A DNA stretch of 64,000 bases, from positions 1-64,000 of IMG/VR virus record IMGVR_UViG_3300036791_001355. One strand, written 5' to 3'. Both the position numbers and the translations under genes were made by a program. The notes under the pieces were generated by a model. The model saw nothing but the letters and a program-made list of their open reading frames with translations, was not told where the DNA came from and made no database searches. Of this stretch, positions 7,601 to 54,156 are shown in pieces (the first letter of the stretch is position 1; each line of letters opens with the position of its first letter). The stretch comes from a virus.

Positions 7601-9228
7601 AGTCCGGCCCGCTTGGCGATATCGTACTTGCGGGCAATCAGCTTGGCGGCCAGATCGGCCCGCTGCTCCGCCGTGCCCGGCCCCTGGCTCTCCACCAGTT
7701 CGCGGATGGTGTCATCGGGCACCGCCACCACCTTCTTGGCGGACTCGCGCAGCTGCTCCTGGCTCATCGAGCCGTAGATGGCGTGCGCCTGGGTGTTGCT
7801 CGGGCTGCGCAGGCTCTCCCATTCGCCCGCCTCTTTACCGAAGGCGTTGCCCTTGGGACCGCCCTGGGCGCGGAAGATCATCGCCCCGCCCGCGTCCAAG
7901 GTGGTCATGTCGCCGTCAACGAGGCCCTGGTTGTCGTATTCCAGCCCGGCCGCGTCCCAGTTGGCCAGCCACGCATGGGTGGCAAAGTTCTCCTGCGCCG
8001 CCTGCTTCTGCTCGGCGCTGTGGCGGTTGATGTTCTTGACGCCCTCTTTCCACTTGGTGGCGGTGCCGAGCTTGCCGTCGCCGATGTCGATGGGCTCGGC
8101 CGACAGGATCGGCGAGCCCGCCGCCTCGTACAGGCGCGAGGCGAGAAGCTCGTTCTTGGCGTGGGCTAACGACTTGGAATACTTGACATAGTATTTCTGG
8201 CCTTCCGGCGAGGTGAAGCGCCCGCCGGGATTGCTGCCCAGCTGCCCGCCGGTCTTGGTCATGCCCGCCAGCGCCAGTTGCCCGCCCGGCTTCCCGGGAG
8301 CAGCCTGCGCGACCTTCTCCTCCTTGGGCGGGTGGTCGCTCGGAGTCTCGCTCCCGGGCTTGAGAAACTTGGTGACCATCTTGCGGTCAACCGGGGCGTT
8401 GAGGTGGTCCTCCAGTTCCTCGACCGGCGCCAGGGTAACGCTGGAGGCCTCCTCGCCGTGATCCTCGGGCGTGCCGCCCACCCGGCGAGCGAAGTAGTAG
8501 CGGGCGTTGCTGGTGGAGCGCTCGACATCGCCGGCAAAGCCGGTCAGTTCCACCTTCAGCCCGGTTTCCTCGTAGGCCTCCTTGATGGCGGTGGCCCTGA
8601 GCGACAGGCCAGGGTCTTGGGTGCCCTTGGGGAAGGTCGCCTTGTAGCCGCCAAAACCCCGCTTGGGATGCATCACCCAGACGCTGCCGTCGGGCTCCTT
8701 GATGATCACCCCGGCGCCCTGCGCGAAGCCCTCGGGCAGGGGCGGTGGGGGTGGGGCCTCGATCTTGGGGCCGCTGTCGGCCAGCTTCTGCCAGCCACCC
8801 CGGGTCTGCGGCGGTGTCCACGAGGCAAAGGCGACGCCATGCAGAGCCTTGGGCGCGGCACTACCCTTCTTGCCGAAGGTCTGCGACTTCTTGGCAGCCT
8901 TGGGTGCCTCCGGTGCGGCGCCCCCGCCACCAGCGCCTGCGGTGAACTTGCCGCCCTCGTTGCGCGGATGCTCGGCTTCCTTGAAGTCGGAGTCCCCACG
9001 CACCGTCTTCGGTGCGTCTTGCCGCCCCGGCAGCAGGTTGAAGCGCCGGGCCTGGATCAGGTAGTCGATCTGGCGCGAGATGTCGGCCAGCGACTGGGCG
9101 ATATCCTCCAGGCCTGCCTCGTCCCCACGCACCGTCTTCGGTGCGTCCTTGCGCGCGCCATGGCGTACCTGCGGTTCCAGAAAGCGGGCGACGGCGTCAC
9201 GCCATGCCCAGGGAGCGCCGTCGTCCAT
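4657..9228 (-). CDS. Giant polyvalent protein: Nudix, kinase-like, helical repeats, ADP-ribosyltransferase
   Basis: 1,523 residues. In order: an N-terminal segment; a Nudix-like domain about 165-290 whose box (FPKGTQDPGLSL, KEAYEETGL) lacks the usual first Glu; a HipA-like kinase-type domain about 335-545 with Lys349, the loop NWDAAGLEYDNQG (423-435) and LDAGG (444-448); eight or nine degenerate helical repeats of 50-60 residues about 610-1270; a Pro/Ala linker; and an ADP-ribosyltransferase domain about 1350-1523 with Arg1423 (LVRGEH), the FTSAS motif (1453) and Glu1493-x-Glu1495. This fits the polyvalent protein class described in phages and conjugative elements, whose enzymatic parts are thought to be delivered with the DNA to act on the host. 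Its place in the head operon agrees. Targets are unknown. Confidence 0.85.
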   Translation of the reverse strand: MDDGAPWAWRDAVARFLEPQVRHGARKDAPKTVRGDEAGLEDIAQSLADISRQIDYLIQARRFNLLPGRQDAPKTVRGDSDFKEAEHPRNEGGKFTAGAGGGGAAPEAPKAAKKSQTFGKKGSAAPKALHGVAFASWTPPQTRGGWQKLADSGPKIEAPPPPPLPEGFAQGAGVIIKEPDGSVWVMHPKRGFGGYKATFPKGTQDPGLSLRATAIKEAYEETGLKVELTGFAGDVERSTSNARYYFARRVGGTPEDHGEEASSVTLAPVEELEDHLNAPVDRKMVTKFLKPGSETPSDHPPKEEKVAQAAPGKPGGQLALAGMTKTGGQLGSNPGGRFTSPEGQKYYVKYSKSLAHAKNELLASRLYEAAGSPILSAEPIDIGDGKLGTATKWKEGVKNINRHSAEQKQAAQENFATHAWLANWDAAGLEYDNQGLVDGDMTTLDAGGAMIFRAQGGPKGNAFGKEAGEWESLRSPSNTQAHAIYGSMSQEQLRESAKKVVAVPDDTIRELVESQGPGTAEQRADLAAKLIARKYDIAKRAGLSEAKKDAWTAEQAHKDFIRRADAWSEADHPRVPAGAEGGGQFTSGGGGGGKVTPSSSPALGAASATKKIVGVVEKALEKGEALSNQELNQLADAVKAYSATKSSSSWANYANVLLADIENQLGLGAGSLGKATFTKWKPKKKEKGGAPEAAPPSAAEMEAMAAEAEAPPEEPEAKEAGGIFGAGPDVTFAKAVTQQVDHLPSAEKKVAYLEGLLKKPLGSANTQFVEGKLAELKGEKGAPVVPDPPGLVGGSVIGKSIKGLAEHPSMTVEGKINAINTYVDMQVAKGTLNKASPTWDYSQTVIAALEAQQGAKPKEVAQAAPEKKTYGESEISDVVSGDLPVEQQLAWLKDAIAQGLVDPSAKTYAEDWLSVLEMAAGEKKKPAKAASEEAEPAGPELPDPLNQSYGQQDLLGYAVNPWTTTTEKIAALKKLGTEMTDPSNKEYAAQLLLAVSGVPKPQGATQKELYESATFGQWKLETKVKQLKHDIAHATDAADKAYGEKLLAAISDAPTQAAEQATAATLPQLPVPGSSVQKNMLQVATSDAPLASKIKTLEQYAQAWPTAGKEYGAKLIEALKGEKKPADTKPQSKAQEDDTAAGMIPNYVKAQMSLGEKLKFVSTMAKEAGPKAKATATKSLGELMNTMTEPAEKHAVAVAIADIEGKPPPVLGPQPHASSKGQQAVYAAATSDKPDAEKITAIEAVLDNPKLTGSFTKSFGEEWIAALKGEAPPSAAKPAAPAPKPAGPKPGTLAAKAKAAAPKTAKHGSLTAPANAQVLQARDSPDLHYALKTEAEAANPASTSSQESYDIVPSLQPGFWQKVSHSKDAEAIQSYGGGGYKKINGVQRGHESATPEALGKIDAMRALFRDPDVAITQDINLVRGEHMDDDQIKAIRQALGKGVGTYHYMRTGFTSASIGPKPGYKEHENVWWHFAVKKGQKVLGIAGQVGHHEREVILPHGVSTEVYEIYHDGTRTHIKALVG
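8334..8356. repeat. TCGCTC dispersed element, in frame inside the polyvalent gene
   Basis: A 23-base copy of the dispersed element lies in the linker between the Nudix and kinase-like domains and is translated as part of PGSETPSDHPP. It marks a tolerated insertion in an unstructured linker. Confidence 0.55.
8998..9017. repeat. ACGCACCG hairpin, copy 1, inside the polyvalent gene
   Basis: Perfect inverted repeat ACGCACCG-TCTT-CGGTGCGT in coding sequence. The surrounding 27 bases are identical to copy 2, and both are translated as DAPKTVRGD. Confidence 0.65.
9127..9146. repeat. ACGCACCG hairpin, copy 2, inside the polyvalent gene
   Basis: Second copy, 129 bases from copy 1 and in the same reading frame, so the protein carries DAPKTVRGD at residues 28-36 and 71-79. 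Confidence 0.65.
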
Positions 9229-16250: not shown

Positions 16251-17456
16251 TTAGCGACCGGGCGGCAGTCCCACCACGGTGCCGTTGCCATCGACGACGG
16301 GCGTCTGGCCGTGCCACTCGCAGTCAGGGCCGAAGGTCAGCACGCCGCCCTGTAGTTGAATGAACGTATCATTACAGTCGAGCTGCATGACGGTGCCGGT
16401 AACCACGTTGTTGTCGAGCAAGCCCTTGTCCTGATATTCCAGCCCGTAACTGATGACGCGGCGATTGGGCGAGTTCGCCGGCTTGGCCAGGGTCGCGTTC
16501 CTGACCTCCAAGAGGCCGCCGTTGCAGCAGTCGATCAGGGAAGCTGTCGAGTTCCGCATGGTGCCGCCATCGACATAAGCGTGCCACGCCCGCGACTTGA
16601 GCGAGTAGCCCTCGGTCGGATCGACGCTGTCGGTGTTCTTCAGTCGTACTGCGTAACCATCACCGACATAGATGTTGTGGGTGTAGCCATCGCCAAGACC
16701 GTTATGCTCTAGCAAGCAATTCACGATGGTGATGTCCCACATCGGCCCGTTATCGGCGGCGACGCCGTTCTGATTGTTGCTGAAGTGACAACCCTCGACG
16801 GTGCCGTAGCCGGCGGCATCGCAACGTACCGCCGCCACCAGCGTATGGCTCTGCTCGCGAATGCCGGCGCCGCTGATGGTAAAGCCCTTGATGTGCCATG
16901 CCGGGGTCGAGGCGACAATCGCCGCCTTGCCCTGATAAACCAGTTCACTAACCGGAACATCACTGAAATCCCAACGAACGCCGGTGCCATCGAGCAGCAA
17001 GTTCTTGTAGATCACGAACGATTCGCGCGGGGTCGCGGGCGGCACGACGACAGTGTCGCCGTCCACCGCCGCGTCAATCGCCTGTCCCACCGTGGTGTAG
17101 GGCTGCCCCACCGTCAGCGTGCGCCCCGAACTGCCGGGTGCCACCGCAGGCAGCGACGGGGCCGGCGGCGCGCCGGGGTTGGCACCCGATGATGGCGGCT
17201 CGACCGGCGGTTGCTCCACGGGCGGCTGCTCAATGGGGGGCTGTTCGCCCCCGCCGATGTCGAGCGGAGCGCTGAAACTGGCCACCACGCCGTTGTCAAA
17301 CGTGACCGTGCCCGCCAGGGTCGGCACCTGTGCCGCCGCGCCCTGGGCCACTTCCTTGATGGTGGTATCAAATAACCCCGTCACGCCATCCGTCAGCGTC
17401 AACGTGCCAGAGAGTCGCGCCGTGGTAGTCGCCAGCGGTTTGGGTGGCTTGGCCAT
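16251..17456 (-). CDS. Right-handed beta-helix protein (tailspike / pectate-lyase-like fold)
   Basis: 401 residues from the ATG at 17456, which has AGGAGA upstream; an in-frame longer reading to 17552 is less likely. Residues 1-80 are a small beta domain, followed by a repeated EQPPVEQPPVEPP linker. Residues about 130-401 show the short repeating strands and the opening LTVGQPYTTVGQAIDAAVDG typical of right-handed beta-helices in pectate-lyase-like or tailspike proteins. No catalytic residues could be assigned. It may bind or degrade a host polysaccharide. Its place between terminase and portal genes is unusual for a tailspike. Confidence 0.65.
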   Translation of the reverse strand: MAKPPKPLATTTARLSGTLTLTDGVTGLFDTTIKEVAQGAAAQVPTLAGTVTFDNGVVASFSAPLDIGGGEQPPIEQPPVEQPPVEPPSSGANPGAPPAPSLPAVAPGSSGRTLTVGQPYTTVGQAIDAAVDGDTVVVPPATPRESFVIYKNLLLDGTGVRWDFSDVPVSELVYQGKAAIVASTPAWHIKGFTISGAGIREQSHTLVAAVRCDAAGYGTVEGCHFSNNQNGVAADNGPMWDITIVNCLLEHNGLGDGYTHNIYVGDGYAVRLKNTDSVDPTEGYSLKSRAWHAYVDGGTMRNSTASLIDCCNGGLLEVRNATLAKPANSPNRRVISYGLEYQDKGLLDNNVVTGTVMQLDCNDTFIQLQGGVLTFGPDCEWHGQTPVVDGNGTVVGLPPGR

Positions 17457-37569: not shown

Positions 37570-38793
37570 ATGACCACGAAGAAAGAAGTGGCGACGGCGG
37601 CCCCTGTGGTTCCTGCCTTGCCAGAAGGTGCGACCAAGTCGGCTTCGCTGATCGACATCATGGCACCAGTGCTGGCGGCGCTTTTGCAGCGCGAGAATCC
37701 GAACATGGATGCGGTGGACCGGGCCATGGCCATGGCCGAGCGGCTGGAGTTCGCGCGCCGGGAACAGGAGTTCAAACAGGCCTTCGCCGTTATGTGGCCC
37801 AAGCTGCCGCAGATCGCCAAGAAGGGTGACGCCAGCCTGGGCGGCAAGGGCGGCTACAAATACGTGCGCGAAGAAGACGTCATGGAGGAGTGCAAGCCGA
37901 TCATGGAAGACCATGGTTTCGGCCTGTCCGCCCAGCCGGTCGAGCAGGATCTGAAGACGGGCACACTGACCATGGAAGTCGAACTGATTTTCCGGAATGG
38001 CTTTTCCAAGCGCGCGCGGATGAGCGGCTACGCCGATGCCGGACCCGGACGCAACGCGCTGCAGGCAATGGGCTCGGCCCAGACCTACCTGACCAAATAC
38101 CTGACTAAGGGCCTGCTGGCATTGGTCCAGAGAGGCGCCGACGACGACGGCAACCGGGTAGGCCTGCGGGAAAGCGGCGGCGACTATATGGGCAACGCCA
38201 AGACGCGCCCTGGCGGCAGCGGCAGCAGTGACCGGCTGAATACCCCGCCCCAGGATCTGCCCGGCGACCAGCCAGCCCCACCGCCGCCCAAGGCCAAGGC
38301 GGCCGCAGCGCAGTGGATCGACCCCGATGGCATCGTGCATGACAACGCCAAGGCATGGTCGCTGGCCTTCAACGAGCACTGGGCGATGGCCAGCCCGGAG
38401 GAGCGGCTGGAACTGCACGAGGAGTATGGCGCCACCCTGCTGGCGGCCCGCAGCGCTGACCGCGAAGCGGCAGTCATCCTGGCGGGGGTGGAGAACAGAC
38501 GCGACCAGAGCGAGACCGAATCGGGACCGACAGATTCGCCCGACTCGAAGCCCGACTCGGCCAAGCTCAGCGACGATGAACAATGGGCCGGAAGAGTGCC
38601 CGACGTGTTGAAACGCCTGCCCAGGACCAACGAAGGCCGCGTGAATTTCGCCAAGCTGCTGCAAGAAGCCACGGCCAGGATGCAACGGCTCAAGAAAGCC
38701 AGCCCCACGGTCTACGAACAGACCCGGGCAAAGTTCACGGCGACCAGCGAGAGGATAGATTTCGCCCCCGCCAACAAAAGGGCGACACCGTGA
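37570..38793 (+). CDS. erf: ERF family single-strand annealing recombinase
   Basis: 407 residues. The N-terminal 200 residues match ERF proteins (FARREQEFKQAFAVMWPKLP, GKGGYKYVREEDVME, GSAQTYLTKYLTKGLLALVQ), which anneal single strands during phage recombination. The rest is a charged, low-complexity tail. It starts four bases after Gp157, a common pair. The stop overlaps the MarR-like start (GTGA). Confidence 0.9.
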   Translation: MTTKKEVATAAPVVPALPEGATKSASLIDIMAPVLAALLQRENPNMDAVDRAMAMAERLEFARREQEFKQAFAVMWPKLPQIAKKGDASLGGKGGYKYVREEDVMEECKPIMEDHGFGLSAQPVEQDLKTGTLTMEVELIFRNGFSKRARMSGYADAGPGRNALQAMGSAQTYLTKYLTKGLLALVQRGADDDGNRVGLRESGGDYMGNAKTRPGGSGSSDRLNTPPQDLPGDQPAPPPPKAKAAAAQWIDPDGIVHDNAKAWSLAFNEHWAMASPEERLELHEEYGATLLAARSADREAAVILAGVENRRDQSETESGPTDSPDSKPDSAKLSDDEQWAGRVPDVLKRLPRTNEGRVNFAKLLQEATARMQRLKKASPTVYEQTRAKFTATSERIDFAPANKRATP

Positions 38794-39821: not shown

Positions 39822-40273
39822 TGCCGCGTCGCCGGGATCGCGCTGTCGGGTGGTGTGTCTATGTGCTGCTCGATCTGGCGGGCGTGCCCCGCTATGTCGG
39901 CATGACCACCAATCTGGATCATCGCATCGCCCAGCATCGGCAGACTGGCGGTCGATTCAAACGATCCAGGCAATACCACCAAGATCTCGTAGCGTTTTGC
40001 AAGAATGGTTTCCGGATCGGCGTGTTTGCGCGCGGATTGACTGAGGCAGAGGCAAGCAATTACGAAGAAATGCTGATCGACCTGTTTGGTAGAACGTGGG
40101 ACGAGACCGGATCTTTATATAACCGTGTAAAGGGAGGTAGATACGCCGGCGGCGCTTATGCTCCACTTTGTCCGCCGAGGGTTATTGATGACTGGCTGGC
40201 AGCCCCCGGCAATGCGGCTTGGGAGCTTGAACGTAAAAAGTATTTACACCAAGCCGGCAAGGAAACGGATTAA
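39821..40273 (+). CDS. GIY-YIG nuclease
   Basis: 150 residues. The catalytic pattern is CVYVLLDLAGVPRYVG (12-27) with Arg35 (DHRIAQH) and a later Glu (ASNYEEMLI). GIY-YIG enzymes are homing or structure-specific nucleases. Codon use is richer in A and T than the neighbours, which suggests acquisition. TGATG overlap with copy B and AGGAG upstream show it is expressed with the operon. Confidence 0.85.
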   Translation: MPRRRDRAVGWCVYVLLDLAGVPRYVGMTTNLDHRIAQHRQTGGRFKRSRQYHQDLVAFCKNGFRIGVFARGLTEAEASNYEEMLIDLFGRTWDETGSLYNRVKGGRYAGGAYAPLCPPRVIDDWLAAPGNAAWELERKKYLHQAGKETD

Positions 40274-40351: not shown

Positions 40352-41002
40352 ATGAAACAGCTCCTTCTCGCCAGCGCCGTGACGCTGGCGATCCCGCTCG
40401 GCGCCGCTGCCGCGCCGAATGAGATCATCAACTTCGCCGGCCCGCTATCCAGCGACTTCATCGCCACCAACCCGACCAGCACCTCGACGGCGCTGTCGGT
40501 CAACAACGTCAACGTCACCATCAGCGGCCTGTTCGGCAACCCGTCCGTGACCAGCGGGGTGATGAACCTCAGCGCGGTCAACACCGATGCGGCAACGAAT
40601 GTGACCGGATTTGCCATTCAGCACTACAATGGGAGTTTCAGCATCACCAACGGGGGTGCGGTTAACTACCTCTCGGGCACCTTCACCGACGCGGCATTCG
40701 GCGCCCTCGGCGGCGATGGATTGACGGTAAATGTAACAAATCCACCGGAGTCGTTAACATTGACTTCCAGCGTCATCCCGGCCAGCGACCTCGTGCCACC
40801 GACGGCGTTCGACCTTTCCATGAGCGCGGTCAACCCACCGTTGACGATTGCCAACGGCACCATCCAGGCATTCGCCGCCAGCTTCACGGGCGACGCCTCG
40901 GCTAACGTGGCGACAGGAGTGCCCGAGCCGGCCTCGCTCGCCATCCTCGGCACCGGCCTGCTGGGCCTTGGCTTCGTCATGAGGAGGAACCATCGTGCGT
41001 AA
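40352..41002 (+). CDS. PEP-CTERM exosortase-substrate protein 1
   Basis: 216 residues from the ATG at 40352; a GTG at 40328 is a weaker option. A signal peptide (QLLLASAVTLAIPLGAAAA), a beta-rich Thr/Asn/Gly body, and a C-terminal PEP-CTERM signal: VPEPASLAILGTGLLGLG, then VMRRNHRA. In hosts with exosortase this signal anchors or exports proteins to the envelope or matrix. The exosortase is not in the window. Followed by a second PEP-CTERM gene with overlap. Confidence 0.85.
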   Translation: MKQLLLASAVTLAIPLGAAAAPNEIINFAGPLSSDFIATNPTSTSTALSVNNVNVTISGLFGNPSVTSGVMNLSAVNTDAATNVTGFAIQHYNGSFSITNGGAVNYLSGTFTDAAFGALGGDGLTVNVTNPPESLTLTSSVIPASDLVPPTAFDLSMSAVNPPLTIANGTIQAFAASFTGDASANVATGVPEPASLAILGTGLLGLGFVMRRNHRA

Positions 41003-41630
41003 TCTTCTTCTCGGTACAGTCGTCCTGGCCGGTTTCGTCGGTCCAGCCTACGCGGCGGCCTCGCTCGGTCCCGACGCCGCCACCGAAGGCCTGACCTACA
41101 CGCTGACGGAAACCAGCACCTCCGGTCTGATGGCCAGTTTCGAACTACAGATTACCGGCGCCAACACCGCCAGTGACACAATTGGCGGCAGAACCGGAAT
41201 AAACGCCATCGCCTTCACCAACCCGACCGGTGGCCTTGCTACTGCCGTGATGACCTCGCCGGCCGGCTACAACTTCGTCCCGGGCGGCCTGAACAGCACA
41301 GGATGCAACGGCAACGGTGGTTTCTTCTGCTTCGACAATTTAGCCATCCCGCCGACGCCCACTACTTTGGTCAGTGGCACGCAGACGCTCGATTTCACGG
41401 CGACGCTGAATGCCGGCGGCTCTTGGAGCGGCTACAGCCCCGATTTCAAGATCGACTGGGTGGGCCGGCAGAACAACTACAGCCTCGTTTCCGAGGCGAT
41501 ACCAGTTAATATGGGCGGTGGACCGCCGCCGCCTCCGCCTCCCCCGCCGCCGCCGATCCCGGAGCCGGCCTCGATGCTGGTGCTGGCGAGCGCGCTGGCA
41601 GCACTGGGGGTAATCCGTCGTCGCCGCTAA
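40995..41630 (+). CDS. PEP-CTERM exosortase-substrate protein 2
   Basis: 211 residues from a GTG with GAGGAGG upstream, overlapping the end of protein 1. A signal peptide (LLLGTVVLAGFVGPAYAA), a beta-rich body with a Cys pair (STGCNGNGGFFCF), a run of 11 prolines, then IPEPASMLVLASALAALGVI and RRRR. Same sorting signal as protein 1, but the bodies differ. A terminator follows at 41675. Confidence 0.85.
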   Translation: MRNLLLGTVVLAGFVGPAYAAASLGPDAATEGLTYTLTETSTSGLMASFELQITGANTASDTIGGRTGINAIAFTNPTGGLATAVMTSPAGYNFVPGGLNSTGCNGNGGFFCFDNLAIPPTPTTLVSGTQTLDFTATLNAGGSWSGYSPDFKIDWVGRQNNYSLVSEAIPVNMGGGPPPPPPPPPPPIPEPASMLVLASALAALGVIRRRR

Positions 41631-42092: not shown

Positions 42093-42689
42093 TTACTTGC
42101 TGGGAGTCGGCACGCCAGGATGGCTCTCGCTCGGCACGATGGCCATCGCCCAGCCCGCCTCGGGTGTCCAGTAGGCGATGACGTCCCAGTTTTCCAGCGG
42201 CTTCGGATCTGGCTTGCCGCCCTCACCCGGGGGCAAGGCGATAGGATGCGTCGGGCGCGGCGGGTACACCACGGGCGGCAGCGGAATCACGATGGGATGC
42301 TCGGGCCTTGCGTCAGGCGGCCAGATTTCCGGCGGCAGGACAATCGGGTGAGATGGGTAGCCCGGCACGGCCGGGGGCGGAATGACTATCGGGTGCTCGG
42401 GGTGGACCCCATCAATGAAACCGGGCGGCAGGACGATGGGATGGGTCGGAAACCCTGGAATATAGATGGGATGGGTCGGCACCCCGGGTGCCCCGCCGGG
42501 AGCAATGGGATGCGCCGGATACGGCGGCAGGGAGCCTGGACCGCCCGAGATAACCGGCGGCCAGTAGATTGGGTGGGTCGGCGTCCCGCCGCCGCCGTCA
42601 CCGCCACCACCGGGCGGCAGGATCGGTCCCTGGTAGACTTCGGGGATATGAATCTTGCCGACGAAGACAGCATCCAATACTGGCATCAT
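42093..42689 (-). CDS. Proline-rich HPI-repeat protein
   Basis: 198 residues. The middle is eight or so repeats of a PTHPI(V/Y)(L/I)PP type, spaced by 15-20 residues. The ends are ordinary (VLDAVFVGKIHIPEVY; NWDVIAYWTPEAGWAMAIVP). Similar HPI proteins occur in other proteobacterial phages without assigned role. Two adjacent ATGs are possible starts (42689, 42686). Confidence 0.65.
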   Translation of the reverse strand: MMPVLDAVFVGKIHIPEVYQGPILPPGGGGDGGGGTPTHPIYWPPVISGGPGSLPPYPAHPIAPGGAPGVPTHPIYIPGFPTHPIVLPPGFIDGVHPEHPIVIPPPAVPGYPSHPIVLPPEIWPPDARPEHPIVIPLPPVVYPPRPTHPIALPPGEGGKPDPKPLENWDVIAYWTPEAGWAMAIVPSESHPGVPTPSK

Positions 42690-43220: not shown

Positions 43221-45512
43221 TCATACCAGCACCTCCACGCGGGTCATGGGATAGAGCTTCACCCCGATGGTCGCCGTCTGCCGATAGCTGTAGGCAACGC
43301 TGACCCGGGCCTCGCCGTTGATGGCGACGGCGTCATAGACCGGCGGCGCAGCGGGATACAGCACCATGCTGCAGACACCGTTGATTGTCGTCCGCGCCAG
43401 CACCCGCAGCCCTGGCGCCACGGCCACGCCGCTCTGCCCGGCGATGAGGGCAGTGGCGAACAGGGTGGTGGCGGTGGTGACGTGGCCGCTGCCGGCGATG
43501 ACAACGCCGGGGGCCAGCACGGCGGTGACGGCGACGCTCACCCCGGCCGTGCCGGCGATCTGCAGCGCGGCCAGAGCGGAGAGGTTGGCACTGACGCTGC
43601 CCTGGCCCGCGATCACGGCAGGCCTGACCGGCACAGTCAGGGCGGCGCTGGCAGCGACGCTGCCGAGGCCCGCGACCGGCGTGCTGGCGGTCGTGCTCAC
43701 GCTGGCCGCCGCGCTGACGCTGCCGCTGCCGCCGAGGGCGAGGACGGCGGGCCGGTAGGTGGCCACGGAGGTGACACCGACGGTGCCCTGGCCGGTGACG
43801 AAAACCGAGGCGGACGGGGCCACAAAGGCCGCCGCCACACTGGCCACGCCCGCCACCGTGGCGCCGCTGCTGAGCCGCGACGAGGCGCTGGCGGTGACAC
43901 TGCCGAGACCCGCCATGGGGACGCTGGCGAGCAGCGTAAAGCCAGGGAGCGCCATACCTGAGAGGCCGCTGATGCCGCTGCCGGCAGCCAGCACGAGCGA
44001 GGCCGAGGCGGCGACGCTCCCCGCCCCGGTCAGCAGCGCCGAGCCGGCCTGTGGCGCCCCGGCCGAGGCAGCGGTGGCGACGACGGTGGCGAGGCCGCCG
44101 AGCGGTGCCGTGGCGCGCGCCAGCACGCCGGCGGCGACGGCAAGCTGTCCGCTGCCCGCGCTCGGCGCCGAGGCGGGCCGGATCGGACCGGCGGCAGCGG
44201 TTACGCTGGCAATCCCGGCAAGGGCGAAGCTGCCGGCGGCCAGCAGAAGCGTGGCGGCGACCGTGACGCCGCCACTGCCCTGGATCGGCGGGGCGACACT
44301 GGCGACCGCCCTGACGATGGCGGCGGCGGCCACAGTGCCGACGCCGCTGAGGGTGGCCGACGACACCGGCGGCCCGACGGCCGCCACCTTGAGGCCGACC
44401 TGGGCGGTGTACCATGTCGTGTTGTTGGTACTGCCAGAGGTGAAGGTGGCGGTGGTGCTGCCCGCCGACGACGTGGTGCGATCCTCGGTCGAGGCGGCAA
44501 AGCCGATGGAACTGCTGGGCAGCCGTCCGGCCCAGCCGGTGCCAGCACTGGTGGGCGGGATGTTGAAGTAGGTCAGCCCGGCCGCCCATTGAATGTTAGT
44601 GGCATTGGTCGACGTCAGCGCCCCGGACGTGACGGCGTCCGTGGTGATGTTGTTCATGCCGGTCTGGAAGTTCTGCAGGTGGGTATCGAGGGCGGAGACG
44701 CCCTGATATTCATCGCAGCCGCAGGTCTGGCTGGCCCAGCCGCTGCCCGCCAGGGTGATGGTCTGCGGATTGCCGGTGACGTTGGCGCGGGAGAAGACGA
44801 CGTAGGAGCAGTTCTCGCCCGTGGCGGCGTCGTAATAGCTCTGCACGACGCTGTAGCTGTTGCCCTTGTCGTCGGTGATGCCGGTCAGGTTGGCGACGGT
44901 GCCGATCCAGGCGGCAAAGCCGATGATCAGGTTGCCGGACCCGACCGGGTGGGTCAGCGCCAGCGGAATGGTGGCGGCACTGCCGCCGGTATAGACCACC
45001 GTCTGCACCCAGGTCGGCCCGGGCGGCGGCGTGGTGGTGTAGACGAGATCACAGCCGACATACTGGAAATTGCTGGCGGTGGTGATGCTGGTGGGCGGAT
45101 CGACCGTCGAGTAGCACGACACCGCATTGGTGAAATCGGCCGAGGTGGTGCCGGTGGCGTTGTTGTCGCTCCACGGCGCGTTGCCCGATGAAGCCGGCAT
45201 GTGCGCCAGCACCGCGTAGCTGGAGGCGCCGTTCAGCAGCACGGGGGTGCTGAGGGGGACGTAGGCGAACGTGCCGGCGGTGCCGGCGCTGAGATTAACC
45301 GTCACCTGAGCCAGATTCGCCAGCACGGTGGTACCGGCCGTGCGCAGCAGGGCGACGTCGCGGTTGCCGGTCGCGCCCGGCATCACGTAGGTGCCGATCT
45401 GCGTCACCCACAGGCCGGTATGGGTGGCGGCCGGCGTGATTTGGCCGCCGACCCAGAATGGCCCGTCGTTGCGGGCGGTGCCCGGGGTAAAGGTGGCGAC
45501 CATGTTGGCCAT
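43221..45512 (-). CDS. Large repeat-containing tail protein A
   Basis: 763 residues; the ATG at 45512 overlaps the stop of the next upstream gene, and the longer frame to 45692 is unlikely. Residues 1-370 are beta-rich (WVGGQITPAATHTGLWVTQI). Residues about 375-730 are 12-15 repeats of a xxGxGSVxAxAxx type of about 25 residues. The same repeats occur in the genes at 45512 and 58321. Probably an extended virion fibre. Confidence 0.65.
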   Translation of the reverse strand: MANMVATFTPGTARNDGPFWVGGQITPAATHTGLWVTQIGTYVMPGATGNRDVALLRTAGTTVLANLAQVTVNLSAGTAGTFAYVPLSTPVLLNGASSYAVLAHMPASSGNAPWSDNNATGTTSADFTNAVSCYSTVDPPTSITTASNFQYVGCDLVYTTTPPPGPTWVQTVVYTGGSAATIPLALTHPVGSGNLIIGFAAWIGTVANLTGITDDKGNSYSVVQSYYDAATGENCSYVVFSRANVTGNPQTITLAGSGWASQTCGCDEYQGVSALDTHLQNFQTGMNNITTDAVTSGALTSTNATNIQWAAGLTYFNIPPTSAGTGWAGRLPSSSIGFAASTEDRTTSSAGSTTATFTSGSTNNTTWYTAQVGLKVAAVGPPVSSATLSGVGTVAAAAIVRAVASVAPPIQGSGGVTVAATLLLAAGSFALAGIASVTAAAGPIRPASAPSAGSGQLAVAAGVLARATAPLGGLATVVATAASAGAPQAGSALLTGAGSVAASASLVLAAGSGISGLSGMALPGFTLLASVPMAGLGSVTASASSRLSSGATVAGVASVAAAFVAPSASVFVTGQGTVGVTSVATYRPAVLALGGSGSVSAAASVSTTASTPVAGLGSVAASAALTVPVRPAVIAGQGSVSANLSALAALQIAGTAGVSVAVTAVLAPGVVIAGSGHVTTATTLFATALIAGQSGVAVAPGLRVLARTTINGVCSMVLYPAAPPVYDAVAINGEARVSVAYSYRQTATIGVKLYPMTRVEVLV

Positions 45513-47152
45513 CACACGGTCTCCGTCGTCGGGGCCGGCATCACACCGCGCGGCAGCGGCGCCAGTTCGCCGCCCCGCTCCAGCGGCGCCAGCGGGATGC
45601 CACGGGCCACCGGCGGCAGATCCGTCTCGCGCGCGACAGGTGCCAGCGGTACGCCACGCGGCATGTCTTCCAGTTCCACGCTGCGCTGGCACGGCGCCAG
45701 CCTGATGCCTTTGACGGTGATCTGGTCATAGGTCTCGGCCACGGCGAGCGCGGCGGTGCCGTCGATGCGAACGGCGGCGGTGAAGGTCTGGCCCTGGTAC
45801 CACGTCAGACTGCCCTGGCCGCCGATCAGGCTGCGCCCTGGCAGGGCCACGCCAGCGGGCAGGAGCACAGACCCCACCCCGGGCAGCGCCGCCCTGACGG
45901 CCATCCTGAGGGCTGCCAGCCGCAGGTCCACCAGCACGCCGCCATGGATGGCGACCGAGGCTTCCTGGCTCAGGGAGGCGAAGAGGTTGCCGTAGCCCCA
46001 CACCGGGATGGGCTGGGCCAGGAAGCGCGCCACCGGCCGCGCCACGAGGCTGCCCTGGCCAGGGATGGCGACGTACGCGGCGCTGCGGCACTGCGCGGTG
46101 ACCGCAAGCGTGCCCTGGCCGCTGATGAGCGAGACAGCGGCGAACAGCCGTGCCGGGGGGGCAACGGCAACGCTGCCGGTGCCGCCGATGACGGCACTGG
46201 CCGGGCGCTGCGGGATGACGACGACGGCGACGCTGCCGTTACCGCCGATAGCGACCCGGGCCGCTGCCAGCACGGTGGCGGCGACGGCGACATTGCCGGT
46301 GCCGGCAATAAGGCAGCGAGGACCGAGGAAAGCAGCAGCGGGAGCGCCGACGCTGCCCGCGCCCGCGATAGTGCAGACGGCAGCCAGTTGCCGGCTGGCG
46401 GTGACGCTGACGGTGGCCCGGCCGAGGGCGAGGTACCACGCCGTGCAGAACTGCGTGGTGGCGACGCTGAGGCTGCCGACGCCGTCGATCTCGGCGCTGA
46501 GAGACCGCAGCGGAGTGGCCGCCACCGTGACGCCGCCGACGCCGTCGATCTCGGCGCTGGCGGGCCTTTGTGGGATCGTATCGACGGCGATGCCGCCGAC
46601 CCCCCCGATGGCGCAAGCGGCAGGCCAGACGGTGCCCGTAAAAGCGGCGGCGAGGACGAAGCCTTCACCGGGCAGCCGGGCAGTGGCGCCCAGCAGGCCG
46701 GTGACAGGAGCGAGGCTGACGCTGGCGGCACCGCCGATGCTCGCCGCACCCGCCAGCCTGAGCGAGGCCTGGACCGAGACGCTGCCGCTGCCGGCGATGC
46801 TGATGTACGGGAGGGCGACGTAGGTGCTGCGAGTGGTGACGCTGCCGACACCGCTGATCTGCGCCGAGACCTGCAGCCCGGTGCCTTCGTGCACCGAGAC
46901 GGCGGCAACGCCGTCGATCTCGACGCTGGCACCGGCGATGACGTTGACGCTGAGACGAAGCTTCTCCCAGTCGCCGCCGACCGTGCCGCTGCCGTTATCC
47001 CAGACGAGGGTGGTGTTCCACAGGTAGCGCGGCGCGTTCCAGACCTCGCCCGCGCCATGGATGGCAGCGCTGGGGCCAGCGCTGAACTGCGGCTCGGCGA
47101 CGCTGACGCTGCCCCCGGTGTCGATGCGTACGCGGGCCAGGAACCACGCCAT
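45512..47152 (-). CDS. Large repeat-containing tail protein B
   Basis: 546 residues. A short beta domain (residues 1-75), then about 16 repeats of IxGxGSVxVxA (for example ISIAGSGSVSVQASL), and a Pro/Arg-rich tail with LPPVARGIPLAPLERG motifs. Shares repeats with protein A directly downstream. A dispersed element lies 14 bases before its ATG. Confidence 0.65.
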   Translation of the reverse strand: MAWFLARVRIDTGGSVSVAEPQFSAGPSAAIHGAGEVWNAPRYLWNTTLVWDNGSGTVGGDWEKLRLSVNVIAGASVEIDGVAAVSVHEGTGLQVSAQISGVGSVTTRSTYVALPYISIAGSGSVSVQASLRLAGAASIGGAASVSLAPVTGLLGATARLPGEGFVLAAAFTGTVWPAACAIGGVGGIAVDTIPQRPASAEIDGVGGVTVAATPLRSLSAEIDGVGSLSVATTQFCTAWYLALGRATVSVTASRQLAAVCTIAGAGSVGAPAAAFLGPRCLIAGTGNVAVAATVLAAARVAIGGNGSVAVVVIPQRPASAVIGGTGSVAVAPPARLFAAVSLISGQGTLAVTAQCRSAAYVAIPGQGSLVARPVARFLAQPIPVWGYGNLFASLSQEASVAIHGGVLVDLRLAALRMAVRAALPGVGSVLLPAGVALPGRSLIGGQGSLTWYQGQTFTAAVRIDGTAALAVAETYDQITVKGIRLAPCQRSVELEDMPRGVPLAPVARETDLPPVARGIPLAPLERGGELAPLPRGVMPAPTTETV

Positions 47153-48600: not shown

Positions 48601-49866
48601 TCAGAGGTCCGCCGACGCTGTCCAGTTAAATACGCCATAACCACCACCTGTCGCTGTGACAGCAACCACGCAAGTAAACCCAGTAACGTCGTTATCAGCC
48701 ATCCTCGCCCCAGAACAATTCGAATAGGCTGGGGTGCCTATCACTGCCGTTGTTGGTGCTGCTCTCATCTGTACAGGAAGGCACCATGTGTTTCCTACCG
48801 TGCCTCCAGCCGAGCTGTTGCTGAAACAGACAACATACTTTCCTGTTTGGAAAAACCGTTGGCAGCGCTGAAGATCGAGCATCGGATCGATTTTCTCTAA
48901 CGGCGTCATTACGGTGCCGACCTCACACTGGGCACCCCACAAGCTGACGGTACCGGACTGCACCCCAATATTGCCTGCGTTGTTCGCGTAGGTACTCCCG
49001 GAGGATAGCCAGAACGCCACCTGCAAGTAGCTGTCATTGTTGGTGCCGTAGGTCATGCCAGCCGTGCTCGGGAGCGTGGCGGTCACGCTGTACCGCCGCC
49101 ATGTCGTTGTGAGTGCGACCGGTGTTCCGGTGGGCCGGATCATTGCAGAGGGCGATCCGCCAGTACCAAAGAGCAGCAAATTGCCAACGCCCACTGACAG
49201 CGGCGTCGCGCTGCACATTGCCCAGAAACTGGTAGTGATCGTTTTGCCAGACAGACGATGAAGATTCTCTATCTGTTGGATTATCTGATGGTAATCGCCT
49301 GCGGCACCAGTGCCGGTAAAGGTATCGACCACCTTATAGAGCGCTGCCTCATCGCCGATGGCGGCACGATCAGCATCGGTCATCGCGGTCAGGCTCATGC
49401 TGCCGCTACCGCCGCTCCACCCGATGCTCCAGCGATCAGCCGTAAATCCGGGCGTCGTGAAGGAAGTACCGCGCTGCTGAATATTAAAATATGGATTGTG
49501 CAGGGCATTCCTGCCGACGTTATAGCCGCTCTGCGCGCTGGTGACCCCGGTCACCCATTGCGCGTTCTGGCGCAGGTAGGCGTTGGCGTCCTGCGGTGCG
49601 TCGGCCAGCGTGCCCTGCGGGGTGGCGGGCACCCATTGCGAGCTGTTACCATCGTTGTAGTACAGCATCAGGGCCAGCCCGATGCTGTCCCACCAGAGCT
49701 GCCCGTTGGCCGGATTGGCGGGCGGGCTGTCGCCGACCGCCAGCGCGTTGCCGCCCGTCACCAGCCACTTGGTGCCGTCGTACAGCCAGGAGGTGGCGCC
49801 GTTCGGGCTGGTATAGGTCTGGCCAGTGGTGACCGGCGGGTCGGGGAAGTTGAGGGCGCCCGACAT
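48601..49866 (-). CDS. Tail fibre paralog 2
   Basis: 421 residues. The same N-terminal module (LNFPDPPVTTGQTYTSPNGA) plus a middle module (PPANPANGQLWWDSIGLALM) and the NPYFNIQQRG domain. Only three bases separate it from paralog 1. Divergence is highest in the C-terminal half, as expected for receptor binding. Confidence 0.75.
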   Translation of the reverse strand: MSGALNFPDPPVTTGQTYTSPNGATSWLYDGTKWLVTGGNALAVGDSPPANPANGQLWWDSIGLALMLYYNDGNSSQWVPATPQGTLADAPQDANAYLRQNAQWVTGVTSAQSGYNVGRNALHNPYFNIQQRGTSFTTPGFTADRWSIGWSGGSGSMSLTAMTDADRAAIGDEAALYKVVDTFTGTGAAGDYHQIIQQIENLHRLSGKTITTSFWAMCSATPLSVGVGNLLLFGTGGSPSAMIRPTGTPVALTTTWRRYSVTATLPSTAGMTYGTNNDSYLQVAFWLSSGSTYANNAGNIGVQSGTVSLWGAQCEVGTVMTPLEKIDPMLDLQRCQRFFQTGKYVVCFSNSSAGGTVGNTWCLPVQMRAAPTTAVIGTPAYSNCSGARMADNDVTGFTCVVAVTATGGGYGVFNWTASADL

Positions 49867-51143
49867 CAGAGATCGGCCGAGGCTGTATAGCCAGAGGTAA
49901 CTTGCCCCCCTCCAGTAGCGGTAAAGGTAAACCAGTAACCAATACCGTTGGCATCGAGAGCCGCTGTAGCGAGGGCCGAACCGTTGGTATAAGCGATGTT
50001 GTAAAGCCCCACAGTGGGTGCGGCTCGCATTGGAACGGGAAACAACATACGACTAGCGGGGCCTTGGCCGGCAACGTGATAGCCCGCTAAATAGATTGCA
50101 CCAACCTGATAAAAGCGTTGGCAGCGCTGAAGGTCAGTCATGGGGTCAATTTTCTCTAGCGGGGTCATTACGTTTCCGACCTCGATCTGGACTCCCCAGA
50201 GGTTGATGGCGCCGGATTGGACGCCGACGTTGCCGGCACGAGTAGCGAGAGCCGAACCGGCAGTTGGCCAAAAGTTAAAATTCGTATAGTCATTGGCATT
50301 CGTGCCAAGTGTCATACCCGCCGCACTCGGCAATGAAAGCGTCAATGAGTAGCGGGCAAATGCCGTTGTCATTGTCACCGCTTGCCCAGAACCAAGGACG
50401 CTGGAGGACGGCGAGCCGCCAGTGCCGAAACTCTGATCTAATGAGACACCTAATTTCAGTCCCGCTGATGATGCGATAGCCCAGAATGACACCGTGACCG
50501 TCTTGCCAGCCAGTCGCCTCACTCCTTCGATACGTTCAGAGAAGTAAGCATGATCACTGGCGCCGGACGTTCCAGTGAACTGGATACCGGCGACGTTGGT
50601 GCAACTCTCATCACCGATTTGCGAACGATTGGCGTCGGTTGCGACGTTCTGTGTCACAGACATTGACGCGCCCGTGCCATAGAAGCCCATCACCCAACGG
50701 TCCATGGTGTAAGCACCACTCACCGTCCAGTTTCCCGACCCGCGCTGAGCGACGTTGAAATATGGGTTCTGGATGACATTGCGACCAACGTTGTCCGCCA
50801 CTGCTGGGAGCGTCGCTACCTGGGTCCACGCTGCCGCGCGCCGGGCATAGGCATAGGCATCGTTGGGCGCGTCGGCCATGCCGCCGGTCAGCTGGTTGAC
50901 CGCCACCACCCACTGTTTCGAGGTGCCATCGTCGATGTAGACGAAAAGCTGGCCCGACACGGTATCCCACCACTCGTTTCCATTGCTCGGGTTGGCTGGA
51001 GGGGTGGCCCCGACGGTGATGCTGGCGCTGCCGCCGCTACCCCCGCCGGTGATCGGCATCCACTTGATGCCGTCGTACAGCCACGACGCGCCGCCGCCGG
51101 TAAAGACGGTGTTGACCGGCGGATTGGCGGGGAAGTCCAGCAT
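49866..51143 (-). CDS. Tail fibre paralog 3
   Basis: 425 residues. The same three modules (LDFPANPPVNTVFTGGGASW; PPANPSNGNEWWDTVSG; NPYFNVAQRGSGNWTVSGA). Overlaps paralog 2 by one base. Tandem duplication of fibre genes is likely. Confidence 0.75.
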   Translation of the reverse strand: MLDFPANPPVNTVFTGGGASWLYDGIKWMPITGGGSGGSASITVGATPPANPSNGNEWWDTVSGQLFVYIDDGTSKQWVVAVNQLTGGMADAPNDAYAYARRAAAWTQVATLPAVADNVGRNVIQNPYFNVAQRGSGNWTVSGAYTMDRWVMGFYGTGASMSVTQNVATDANRSQIGDESCTNVAGIQFTGTSGASDHAYFSERIEGVRRLAGKTVTVSFWAIASSAGLKLGVSLDQSFGTGGSPSSSVLGSGQAVTMTTAFARYSLTLSLPSAAGMTLGTNANDYTNFNFWPTAGSALATRAGNVGVQSGAINLWGVQIEVGNVMTPLEKIDPMTDLQRCQRFYQVGAIYLAGYHVAGQGPASRMLFPVPMRAAPTVGLYNIAYTNGSALATAALDANGIGYWFTFTATGGGQVTSGYTASADL

Positions 51144-52967
51144 TCACCGCGCTTCCAGCGCCGCTACCCGCGCCACCAGGGCCTCGTTCTGCGCCGCCAG
51201 CTGCTCGACCATGGCGCTGAGTTCCTGCACCGCGTTGACCATGGCGTAGTCGAGCCGCTCGGTTCTGATGTGGCGCATGTCATCGACTTCCTCGCCATCG
51301 ACATAGCCCGGGTGGCGATAGATCAGCTCCGGCCAGAACTCCTCGGCATCCTGGGCAACGATCCCCGCATGCACAGTGGTGGTATCGCGGGGCTGCCTGG
51401 GCGGGGCAGGGTCCAACTGCGGATCGCGCTTGGGATTGTCGTCGTTGCCCTTCCATGTGAAGTCCATCACCTTGAGGCGCTTGATCTCATCGAGTCCGCG
51501 CTGGTGCGGACCGATGACGTTCTTGATCCGCGCGTCGCTGGTATTGGCAACGATGTAGCAGTAGTTGCCGCCGTCGATGTAGAGGTAGGTGGCGTGGTTG
51601 CCGTCGATGGACGCCATGAACCAATGGCCGGTGGCCGAGAAATAAACGCCGTTGCCGTTGTTGGACTGACAGCCGCCATTGCAGACGCACTGCCCGTCTA
51701 CCTGGGCGGTGCCTGTCGTATGCATGTAGGTGCAGGTGACTGCGGCGCGTGGCCAAATGTTGCCGGCAGTATCAATGTAGAAATTAGTCGTGCCGTTCTC
51801 GACGAAAGTCCAATTGCCGTTGCTGGAGTCGCGATTGAGACGATAGGCCCAGTTATTCGGCGAGATGCCGCAATTGCTGCCGGTGCAGTAAAACACGTCG
51901 CCCGTGCTGCAGGCGGCGTTGGAATGCATGGAACCATTGACCTGCAAATTCCCGTAAGAAGCCAGATAGTTCGCGTACATCCCCTGCGCCACCAGCGCAT
52001 TGCCAGAGCTGTCGATGTGCATCCGTTCCGCACCGGCACTGTTGTCCCACACCGTCCAGTTGCCATTATTGAAACAGCCGGTCAGCCAAGAGCGGACGTT
52101 CGTGCAAGTAAAGTCAACACAGGCATGGTTGGCTTGCGGCGAGGTGAGGTAAAGGTAACCCGCTGAATTAACGGAGAGTGTGTTATTGACGGTCAGAGTG
52201 CCGTCCGCCTGCATATTGCCAGTGCTGTGGACATAGCCCCCGGTCAGGGTGCTGCTGGCGGTAACGTTGGTCGTGCTCAGCGTGCCCGTCGCCGACAGGC
52301 TCATCACCGACGTCCACGTCACCTGCGCACCGGCCGCGCCAGCGGGGGCGTTCAGCCAAGCGAAGCTGCCATCGGGCTGGGATTGCGTGGCCGAGGCCGC
52401 GCTGGTGCCGAGATATCTGAACAGTCCGGTGGTGTTGGAGATATACGCCCCCGAGACCAGTCGCGCGTTCAGCCCGGATGGCGCCACCGCGCCCGCGCCT
52501 GCCGTCATCAGCGTGCCGGGCAGGGCGTCGGCGGGAATGGCGGTGCCGCCCAGCCCCAGGCTGCCGGGGCCGTTCAGCGTGCCGCCGCTGATCGGCAGCA
52601 CCTGCCACCAGCCATTCTGGTAGCGGCCATAGGTATGGCTGTCGACCGGCGCATCGGCGATGCCGCTGCTATTGGAGGCGGCCACCCACTGACTCGTATT
52701 TGGATCGGTATAGTAAATGAAAAGCTGGCCCGAGACGCTGTCCCACCACAGTTTCCCCGCTGTCGGGGAGGCGGGCGCGGTGTCGGAGATGGTCACCGAC
52801 ATGACGTAGGACTGGAGATAGCGCAGCGGCACGGCATCGAGCGGCTGCACCGGGTCTTGGTAGAGGGTGAAGCCGCCCTGCATGATGCCGCCCGCCAGCA
52901 GCAGACGGGCGTTCAGGGCCGCGTTGACCTCGTTGGCATCGGCGGGCTGACCGGGCGAGATCGGCAT
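51144..52967 (-). CDS. Tail spike with C-terminal S74 chaperone, copy 1
   Basis: 607 residues. N-terminal anchor (ISPGQPADANEVNAALNARL), a WWDSVSGQLFIYYTD module, a beta-helical middle, and a peptidase S74 intramolecular chaperone from about 475: TSDARIKNVIGPHQRG with Ser477 and Lys482, and HAGIVAQDAEEFWPEL. S74 domains fold spike trimers and cleave themselves off. A coiled coil ends the protein. The base after its stop begins paralog 3. Confidence 0.85.
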   Translation of the reverse strand: MPISPGQPADANEVNAALNARLLLAGGIMQGGFTLYQDPVQPLDAVPLRYLQSYVMSVTISDTAPASPTAGKLWWDSVSGQLFIYYTDPNTSQWVAASNSSGIADAPVDSHTYGRYQNGWWQVLPISGGTLNGPGSLGLGGTAIPADALPGTLMTAGAGAVAPSGLNARLVSGAYISNTTGLFRYLGTSAASATQSQPDGSFAWLNAPAGAAGAQVTWTSVMSLSATGTLSTTNVTASSTLTGGYVHSTGNMQADGTLTVNNTLSVNSAGYLYLTSPQANHACVDFTCTNVRSWLTGCFNNGNWTVWDNSAGAERMHIDSSGNALVAQGMYANYLASYGNLQVNGSMHSNAACSTGDVFYCTGSNCGISPNNWAYRLNRDSSNGNWTFVENGTTNFYIDTAGNIWPRAAVTCTYMHTTGTAQVDGQCVCNGGCQSNNGNGVYFSATGHWFMASIDGNHATYLYIDGGNYCYIVANTSDARIKNVIGPHQRGLDEIKRLKVMDFTWKGNDDNPKRDPQLDPAPPRQPRDTTTVHAGIVAQDAEEFWPELIYRHPGYVDGEEVDDMRHIRTERLDYAMVNAVQELSAMVEQLAAQNEALVARVAALEAR

Positions 52968-52968
52968 G

Positions 52969-54156
52969 TCAGCGCGCCTCCAACGCCGCCACGCGGGCGG
53001 TCAGTTCCTGCACCGCGTTGATCAGCGCGAAATTCAGCTGCTCCAGGCGCAGATAGCGCAGATCGTCGACCGCGTTGCCGTCGATATGGCCCTGACGGCG
53101 GGCCACCAGTTCGGGCCAGAACTCCTCGACGTCCTGCGCCATGATGCCAGGGTGCACCGTGGTGGTGTCGCGGGGCGGCAGGTCCGGGGCAGGCGATACT
53201 TTCTCTGCCGCGCTGGGATCGTCGTCGTTGCCCTTCCACGTGTAGTCCATCACCCGCAGACGGTTGATGTCGGCCAGCCCGCGCTGATGCGGCCCGACCA
53301 CGTTCTTAATCCTGGCGTCGCTGGTGTTGGCGGTGATGTAGCACCAGTTCCGGCCATCGACGTAAAGATAGGTGGTGCCGTTGCCGTCCACCGAGGCCAT
53401 GAACCAATGACCGACGGCGGAGAAATAGACGCCCTGGCTGCCGTTGGACTGACAGCCGCCATTGGCAATTAGCTGGCCGTCGATCTGCCCGTTGCCGGTC
53501 GAATGCACGTAGCCGCCCTGCACCGTGCCGCCGCAGGTCAGGTTGCTATTGGCATTCACCGTGCCGTTGACCTGGGCGCCGCCGTCGATCTGCAAGCTGC
53601 CGGTGGAGTGAATCCAGCCGCCGACCAGGGAGTTGGGCGTGGAGATATTGCCCTGGCACCAGAGATTGCCGCTGCCATCGAGCGTGGCATACCAGTTGCC
53701 ATTCATCGACCAGATGCGCATGCCGTCGCTCTCGCGCCAGCAATCGTACCAGTTGGCGGCCCAGTTCAGCAGCCGCAGGTTGCCTGAGCGACCGAGGTAG
53801 AAATCACTGACCTGATTATAGGCGGCGTTGACGTTGTTGTCGCATAACGTGCTGCCGCCGATGTGGTGATGGTTGCCGCCCGCGCCGCCGATGGTGAAGC
53901 GGTAAGAGCCGGCGGTCTCATCAGCGATGGCAAGGGTGCCGGTGTTGTCGCAGCCCGCCGACCACGTGCGCGCGCCCGCCACGGTGTAGCGGATGCGCGA
54001 GTAGAAGCCACTCGGCACGTTGACATTGATGGGATCGCTGCCGGGGGCATTCATCGCCACCGGCCCGGTGAGTATGCCGCCCGCCAGCGCGAGGCGTGCG
54101 TTGATCGCGTTGTTGACATCCGCCGCGAGCGCGGGCTGGCCGGTGACGATTGCCAT
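52969..54156 (-). CDS. Tail spike with C-terminal S74 chaperone, copy 2
   Basis: 395 residues. Anchor (VTGQPALAADVNNAINARLA), a beta-rich middle and an S74 domain with Ser279 and Lys284 (TSDARIKNVVGPHQRG). The last 130 residues closely match copy 1; the middle differs. Confidence 0.85.
   Translation of the reverse strand: MAIVTGQPALAADVNNAINARLALAGGILTGPVAMNAPGSDPINVNVPSGFYSRIRYTVAGARTWSAGCDNTGTLAIADETAGSYRFTIGGAGGNHHHIGGSTLCDNNVNAAYNQVSDFYLGRSGNLRLLNWAANWYDCWRESDGMRIWSMNGNWYATLDGSGNLWCQGNISTPNSLVGGWIHSTGSLQIDGGAQVNGTVNANSNLTCGGTVQGGYVHSTGNGQIDGQLIANGGCQSNGSQGVYFSAVGHWFMASVDGNGTTYLYVDGRNWCYITANTSDARIKNVVGPHQRGLADINRLRVMDYTWKGNDDDPSAAEKVSPAPDLPPRDTTTVHPGIMAQDVEEFWPELVARRQGHIDGNAVDDLRYLRLEQLNFALINAVQELTARVAALEAR

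Follow-up and report, generated by a model that had tools for sequence, protein, structure and literature searches.

A tandem pair of PEP-CTERM genes

The window analyzed here, a stretch of 64,000 nucleotides from an IMG/VR viral record of 75,505 bases (75.5 kb), contains two plus-strand genes that lie in tandem and overlap by eight bases. The first, P1 (40352..41002, ATG start, 216 aa), encodes a PEP-CTERM protein of a family known only from viral records. The second, P2 (40995..41630, GTG start, 211 aa), encodes another PEP-CTERM protein, and its ribosome-binding site, read from the sequence as AGGAGG (40982..40987, plus strand), lies within the 3' end of P1, seven bases before the P2 start. 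A terminator-like hairpin is located 3' of P2 (41727..41749, plus strand) and was also detected on the opposite strand; four terminator-like sites were observed in the region, against 1.9 expected from shuffling. Gene calls were made with a simple script of our own.

The P1 tail (40919..40999, plus strand) consists of VPEPAS, a hydrophobic helix, and a basic end (GVPEPAS...MRRNHRA), and scored 24.5 bits against both PF07589 (cut-off 20.7) and NCBIfam TIGR02595 (cut-off 16). In the P2 tail (41553..41627, plus strand), a proline run is followed by IPEPAS, a hydrophobic helix, and an RRRR end (PIPEPAS...IRRRR); this tail scored 20.4 bits against PF07589 by hmmscan, slightly below the cut-off of 20.7, and 16 bits against TIGR02595, which equals the cut-off. 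When the whole record was searched in six frames, both tails exceeded the PF07589 cut-off (28.6 bits for P1 and 24.4 bits for P2) and were the sole matches in all 75,505 bases. An initial annotation of this DNA had described two tandem PEP-CTERM proteins with VPEPAS or IPEPAS motifs; its wording is correct, with P1 above the Pfam and TIGR02595 cut-offs and P2 clearing that of Pfam when searched in six frames.

A signal peptide is predicted at the N-terminus of P1 (MKQLLLASAVTLAIPLGAAAA; 40352..40414, plus strand), where the structural model places a helix at residues 2–11. Signal peptides were assigned visually and with a simple rule (an A-x-A-like site, with K/R near the start), and among Met-starting P1 proteins the site is present in 80 of 80 and the basic residue in 79 of 80 by that rule. 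The signal peptides of the initial annotation are putative. The beta-rich bodies claimed at the same time appear as all-beta bodies in the AlphaFold models, which place a C-terminal helix after the body (residues 194–215 in P1 and 191–210 in P2) and predict nothing but beta strands between the N-terminus and that helix. Model confidence was good for P1 (pLDDT 85.8; 57 sequences) and poor for P2 (pLDDT 66.7; 16 sequences).

Genomic setting

The pair lies between the replication genes and the tail/baseplate module of the phage. To its left are genes for the portal, the terminase, a Toprim + AAA protein (primase-helicase-like), an ERF recombination protein, and a GIY-YIG nuclease, and to its right are the tail fibers, a methyltransferase, and a baseplate protein. 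P1 and P2 close a plus-strand gene run that starts at about 37000. The part of this run upstream of P1 (37000..40273, plus strand, from the gene calls) includes the ERF protein (37570-38793, plus strand; Pfam ERF, 51 bits) and the GIY-YIG nuclease (ending at 40273, plus strand; Pfam, 30.3 bits), together with small proteins and a MarR-like protein named from its sequence alone; P1 and P2 are probably transcribed together with the replication genes in this phage. The GC content of both genes (0.63–0.64) is close to that of the window (0.65). The flanking phage genes, the gene run, the hairpin, and the GC content therefore identify the segment as phage DNA. The earlier claim that the genes are phage-borne holds, and the possibility raised alongside it, that they belong to host DNA outside the phage boundary, is excluded by the flanking phage genes (terminase, portal, baseplate, and tail fibers on both sides within one record). 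Elsewhere in the window, a 1523-aa protein is encoded amid the head genes (4657-9228, minus strand), with a weak nudix PHROG match alone.

Protein bodies and predicted folds

The best NCBIfam match of P1 is PepA, a flocculation-associated PEP-CTERM protein (NF033554), aligned over residues 40–213 at 39.8 bits against a cut-off of 80 (P2, 11.4). Stripped of tail and signal, none of ten bodies, nine of P1 and one of P2, matched NCBIfam, and the P1 and P2 bodies of the window without their tails gave no Pfam match. An assignment of P1 to PepA or to any other named family was rejected, since the scores fall below the cut-off and the matches vanish once the tail is removed (10 bodies).

The P1 fold showed no clear relative in the PDB by Foldseek (best E 0.06), and a profile search against solved structures returned nothing for P1. 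A viral structure library gave a single Foldseek row (E 7.9e-4, TM-score 0.16), and small beta-barrels reached a Z of 8.5 in VIA-align, close to background according to a note supplied by that tool. For P2, Foldseek aligned the model (pLDDT 67) with the chitin-binding domain 2rtt (E 2.1e-3, probability 1.00), and VIA-align gave Z up to 7.9 for CBM3, the same as for unrelated sandwiches. The model suggests a beta sandwich for P2; CBM2 and CBM3 domains are among the better Foldseek rows, and the likeness is weak. Profile matches of P2 to viral envelope glycoproteins among solved structures (E 0.006) were set aside as chance, as they involved a short stretch at the end of the body and covered no domain.

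The P1 family in uncultivated viruses

With P1 as the query, viral contigs gave 43 loci, and a further scan with an alignment of those loci returned 86 relatives, 80 of which were retained; together the two scans yielded 83 distinct P1 loci beyond the window, all scoring 214–334 bits against a P1 profile built from 30 sequences. The corresponding viral scan with P2 alone returned nothing, and that with a P2 alignment returned 19 loci. Outside these contigs, the 61 pattern matches obtained from 84,980 bacterial and archaeal genomes included no P1 relative, neither P1 nor P2 was matched in 50,697 phage records, and P1, the one protein searched there, drew no match in 72,556 plasmid records. The genome and viral scans depend on short exact peptide patterns, and a diverged bacterial P1 could therefore escape detection. 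A profile search of 385 Alphaproteobacteria and 369 Gammaproteobacteria matched six and four genomes, respectively, nearly all via the tail; one gammaproteobacterial protein (L226) aligned to most of the P1 profile at only 22–31 bits, and P2 gave a single partial match in the 385 Alphaproteobacteria.

An independent scan with a DNA pattern of the tail alone found at least 80 loci. Among the matches listed, 33 of 80 loci hold a PEP-CTERM ORF and P1 is present in 13 of these 33, at least eight of the 13 being contigs already known; the 14 listed loci with record names beginning '2', which we take to be isolate genomes, contained no PEP-CTERM ORF. The phage-borne copies had been called unexpected in the initial annotation; this is fair, although they are no single oddity, recurring as they do in uncultivated phages, and viral proteins of the TIGR03118 family have already been published (PMC11003980).

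The phages that carry P1 are of several kinds. A neighbor scan covering 81 of the 183 proteins within 5 kb of P1 at 41 loci (nearest taken first, with very long proteins and some near-duplicates, such as PEP-CTERM neighbors, left out) recovered terminase (5 members), several portal families, major head protein families, DNA polymerase, ParB, and RecT, and the terminases, portals, and polymerases beside P1 differ among phages. An integrase match was found in only 5 of 49 records (four above the cut-off), so most such phages carry no sign of integration; the records may be fragments. Some phages carry P1 amid head genes instead of beside replication genes, and the timing of expression may therefore vary. 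Upstream of P1, one of two sigma-54 consensus patterns was modestly enriched (26% vs 9% in mononucleotide shuffles; 53 upstream regions, up to two mismatches), and the second showed no clear enrichment in the 53 regions.

None of 29 longer records with a terminase related to that of the window carried a PEP-CTERM gene, so the cassette is dispensable for that lineage; in 80 terminase loci from other phages (483 kb), the tail profile did not match a single ORF. With 0 of 80 control loci set against 83 full-length P1 loci, the PEP-CTERM tails of the pair are not a product of chance. Given its absence from 29 of 29 and 80 of 80 loci, the cassette is accessory and appears to move between phages.

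P1 is under purifying selection, with dN/dS of 0.08–0.23 in nine of ten gene pairs, the tenth being saturated (pN/pS 0.20). PEP-CTERM genes abound in some bacteria, and IMG/VR is not free of errors, including records that may be misfiled; both points would suit an origin of P1 and P2 as host genes acquired by chance, or as residents of misfiled bacterial contigs, with no phage role. Against this stand the terminase model matches in 20 of 44 P1 records (the first 43 loci and the window record), the portal, major head protein, and polymerase neighbors, the failure of the above searches to find a bacterial copy of the P1 body, and the purifying selection itself, which together largely refute such an origin and leave it with a very slight probability.

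Recurrent pairing and exchange of partners

A second PEP-CTERM gene neighbors 16 of 64 distinct P1 genes (P2 in seven and other bodies in nine), and a PEP-CTERM neighbor accompanies 14 of 16 distinct P2 genes (P1 in seven and another body in seven); at two loci (L070 and L100), three PEP-CTERM genes stand in a row. A third phage PEP-CTERM family, whose members carry RGQT or RSQAIVT ahead of the tail, is a frequent partner of P2 and often lies directly upstream of it (L089, L090, L097, L098, and L099, with further members at L253, L263, L265, L274, L307, and L330). From these counts and the swapping of partners, it follows that the tandem arrangement noticed in the window is a recurring architecture with exchangeable parts. 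The search for the same genes in related prophages suggested by the initial annotation thus found P1 in 83 other viral loci, with recurrent pairing, and drew a blank in the 29 terminase relatives. We tentatively propose, at somewhat less than even odds, that a mobile cassette encoding one to three PEP-CTERM proteins, with a virus-only P1 and exchangeable partners, circulates among several kinds of uncultivated phages and would hijack the host exosortase to build a layer on the infected cell serving anti-adsorption or matrix remodeling.

The retention of tails while partner bodies are swapped would also be expected of an exosortase decoy, that is, a flood of substrate that blocks the attachment of host PEP-CTERM proteins, loosens the exopolysaccharide coat, and aids the exit of progeny. 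The closest experimental precedent found, host PepA, holds exopolysaccharide on the cells of a floc-forming bacterium, in which its overexpression reportedly left less exopolysaccharide released and more bound (PMC9850573), and this too would favor a decoy. A decoy needs no conserved body, however, whereas the P1 body contains most of the invariant columns of the alignment and is subject to the purifying selection described above, and we consider a decoy unlikely.

Tail conservation and the predicted host exosortase

Glu192 and Pro193 each reach at least 90% conservation among 57 P1 sequences, and 81 of 84 P1 copies combine Glu-Pro with at least two basic residues close to the C-terminus; a strict PEP occurs in 62 of 84, some of the others having swapped the first Pro. 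Three copies (L042, L043, and L044; near 10567) lack the tail, ending in SAVPGR just short of it, with no tail seen in another frame, and these form one lineage, the only tail-less one among the 84 copies.

No exosortase (PF09721) was found in the 44 records, and any processing must therefore be host-encoded. Exosortase is encoded in 52 of 385 Alphaproteobacteria, and all six of those matched by the phage P1 profile encode it (hypergeometric 4.7e-6), a comparison which indicates that the phage tails are of the type used where exosortase exists and which does not thereby identify the host. Tail-anchored periplasmic proteins can function without sorting, and the replaced first Pro in some copies would be consistent with an ordinary C-terminal membrane anchor in which exosortase plays no part. 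A simple anchor has no need of a Glu-Pro kept at 90% or more, however, and its profile should not select exosortase genomes only, which makes a plain anchor improbable. Judged from their sequences, the P1 and P2 tails look like real exosortase substrates, and the host of this phage would accordingly be expected to encode an exosortase.

The window terminase is at best 49% identical to that of an isolated phage (a Shewanella phage), and related terminases occur at 32 genome loci; the best of these (55%) belongs to an Acetobacteraceae MAG, where its 10.9 kb contig is possibly misbinned phage. Exosortase was present in only 6 of the 19 related-terminase genomes tested (19 of the 32 loci) and absent from the remaining 13, including the Acetobacteraceae MAG, which counts against the host exosortase predicted by the initial annotation. 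The window methyltransferase and the portal of another P1 phage were also tried as guides to the host, and no single host was indicated.

Proposed role on the infected-cell envelope

We propose that P1 and P2 serve the phage as accessory cargo: the host exosortase would place them on the infected-cell envelope, where they probably alter the surface or matrix. We assign this reading a probability of roughly 0.6. Both proteins would be exported by the Sec pathway, with removal of the signal peptide; the beta-rich body would fold in the periplasm while the modeled C-terminal helix retains the protein in the inner membrane. As the tail suggests, the host exosortase would then recognize the PEP motif, cut, and hand the protein on to the cell's outer surface or its exopolysaccharide layer, where the displayed body would most likely change surface binding by masking receptors or reworking the matrix, leading to less further phage adsorption or less trapping of progeny. 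Superinfection exclusion is our first-choice function for the displayed proteins, held with a little less than even confidence.

Phage envelope proteins that block superinfection include Llp of T5 and Cor of phi80, which are anchored by lipid or by transmembrane segments. P1 and P2 would likewise be small, phage-made in the infected cell, and envelope-anchored, though through a predicted exosortase tail. Relative to the known PEP-CTERM/exosortase (EpsH) sorting system, P1 and P2 share the predicted signal peptide, PEP motif, hydrophobic helix, and basic end, and the tail profile is common to phage and bacterial members; they differ in being phage-encoded, in the lack of an exosortase in the 44 records, and in having bodies outside any NCBIfam or Pfam family. 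Thirteen viral TIGR03118-family proteins with a putative exosortase-interaction domain appear in excerpts of a report on hot-spring viral contigs (PMC11003980). P1 and P2 gave no match to that family at E up to 1, and those excerpts do not describe the paired cassette.

No open PubMed Central paper was found whose title or abstract start concerns phage-encoded PEP-CTERM proteins. The words phage, virus, and viral do not occur in the main text of the original PEP-CTERM paper (PMC1569441); in passages from two further papers, the PEP-CTERM genes belong to the host (PMC12642866) or are unrelated to the prophage (PMC4886054).

What is known of exosortase sorting comes mainly from genomics, and a function has been tested for few substrates of the pathway. 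Phage substrates that are small, conserved, and under selection could reveal the use of the surface positions it reaches. The virus-only P1 family suggests that phages borrow host sorting machinery to coat or alter the infected-cell surface; if true, this would be a new phage means of controlling adsorption or the biofilm matrix, and it predicts, in a form that can be checked, that a phage with P1 has a host with an exosortase.

Neighboring genes

A beta-helix protein (g13; 16251..17456, minus strand) is encoded between the portal and the terminase, and its relatives adjoin PEP-CTERM genes in other phages; a protein 70% identical to it adjoins the closest relative of P1 (L002). Relatives of a homolog from another P1 phage (L032) were found at 24 loci, 23 of them newly fetched, and PEP-CTERM ORFs were present at 12 of the 23 (five on known P1 contigs and seven not, three of the seven looking like copies of one another), compared with 0 of 80 control loci, which were shorter on average. 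As the query came from a P1 phage, the association partly reflects shared ancestry, and the beta-helix protein is a possible functional partner of the pair. This association, and the resemblance of the predicted P2 fold to CBM2/CBM3 sandwiches (E 2e-3 or worse), would suit a role in release and spread, in which P1 and P2 bind exopolysaccharide at lysis and open the matrix together with the beta-helix protein. The beta-helix protein falls below the PF13229 cut-off, however, so that its enzyme activity is putative, and the Z-scores of P2 (7–8) are in the range of common sandwiches; we regard such a role as quite unlikely.

A proline-rich protein with THPI/SHPIVLPP repeats and a conserved end is encoded close to the pair (42093..42689, minus strand); the window copy has no Pfam or PHROG match, and relatives adjoin P1 in other phages (L002, L004, L016, L019, L025, and L026). 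At another P1 locus, a 65-aa probable single-pass membrane protein without a family match is encoded (L028:10429-10626), with relatives at 12 loci, often directly after P1. These recurrent neighbors offer a hint, and no more, of an envelope or exopolysaccharide theme. Further along the window, two large Gly/Ala/Val-rich repeat proteins of the GxGSVxxxA type (43221-47152, minus strand) adjoin the tail-fiber genes, and four long genes lie in a row (48601-54156, minus strand). One of the four (51144-52967) is tail-fiber-like by PHROGs and the others look similar by eye; the four are possibly receptor-binding variants.
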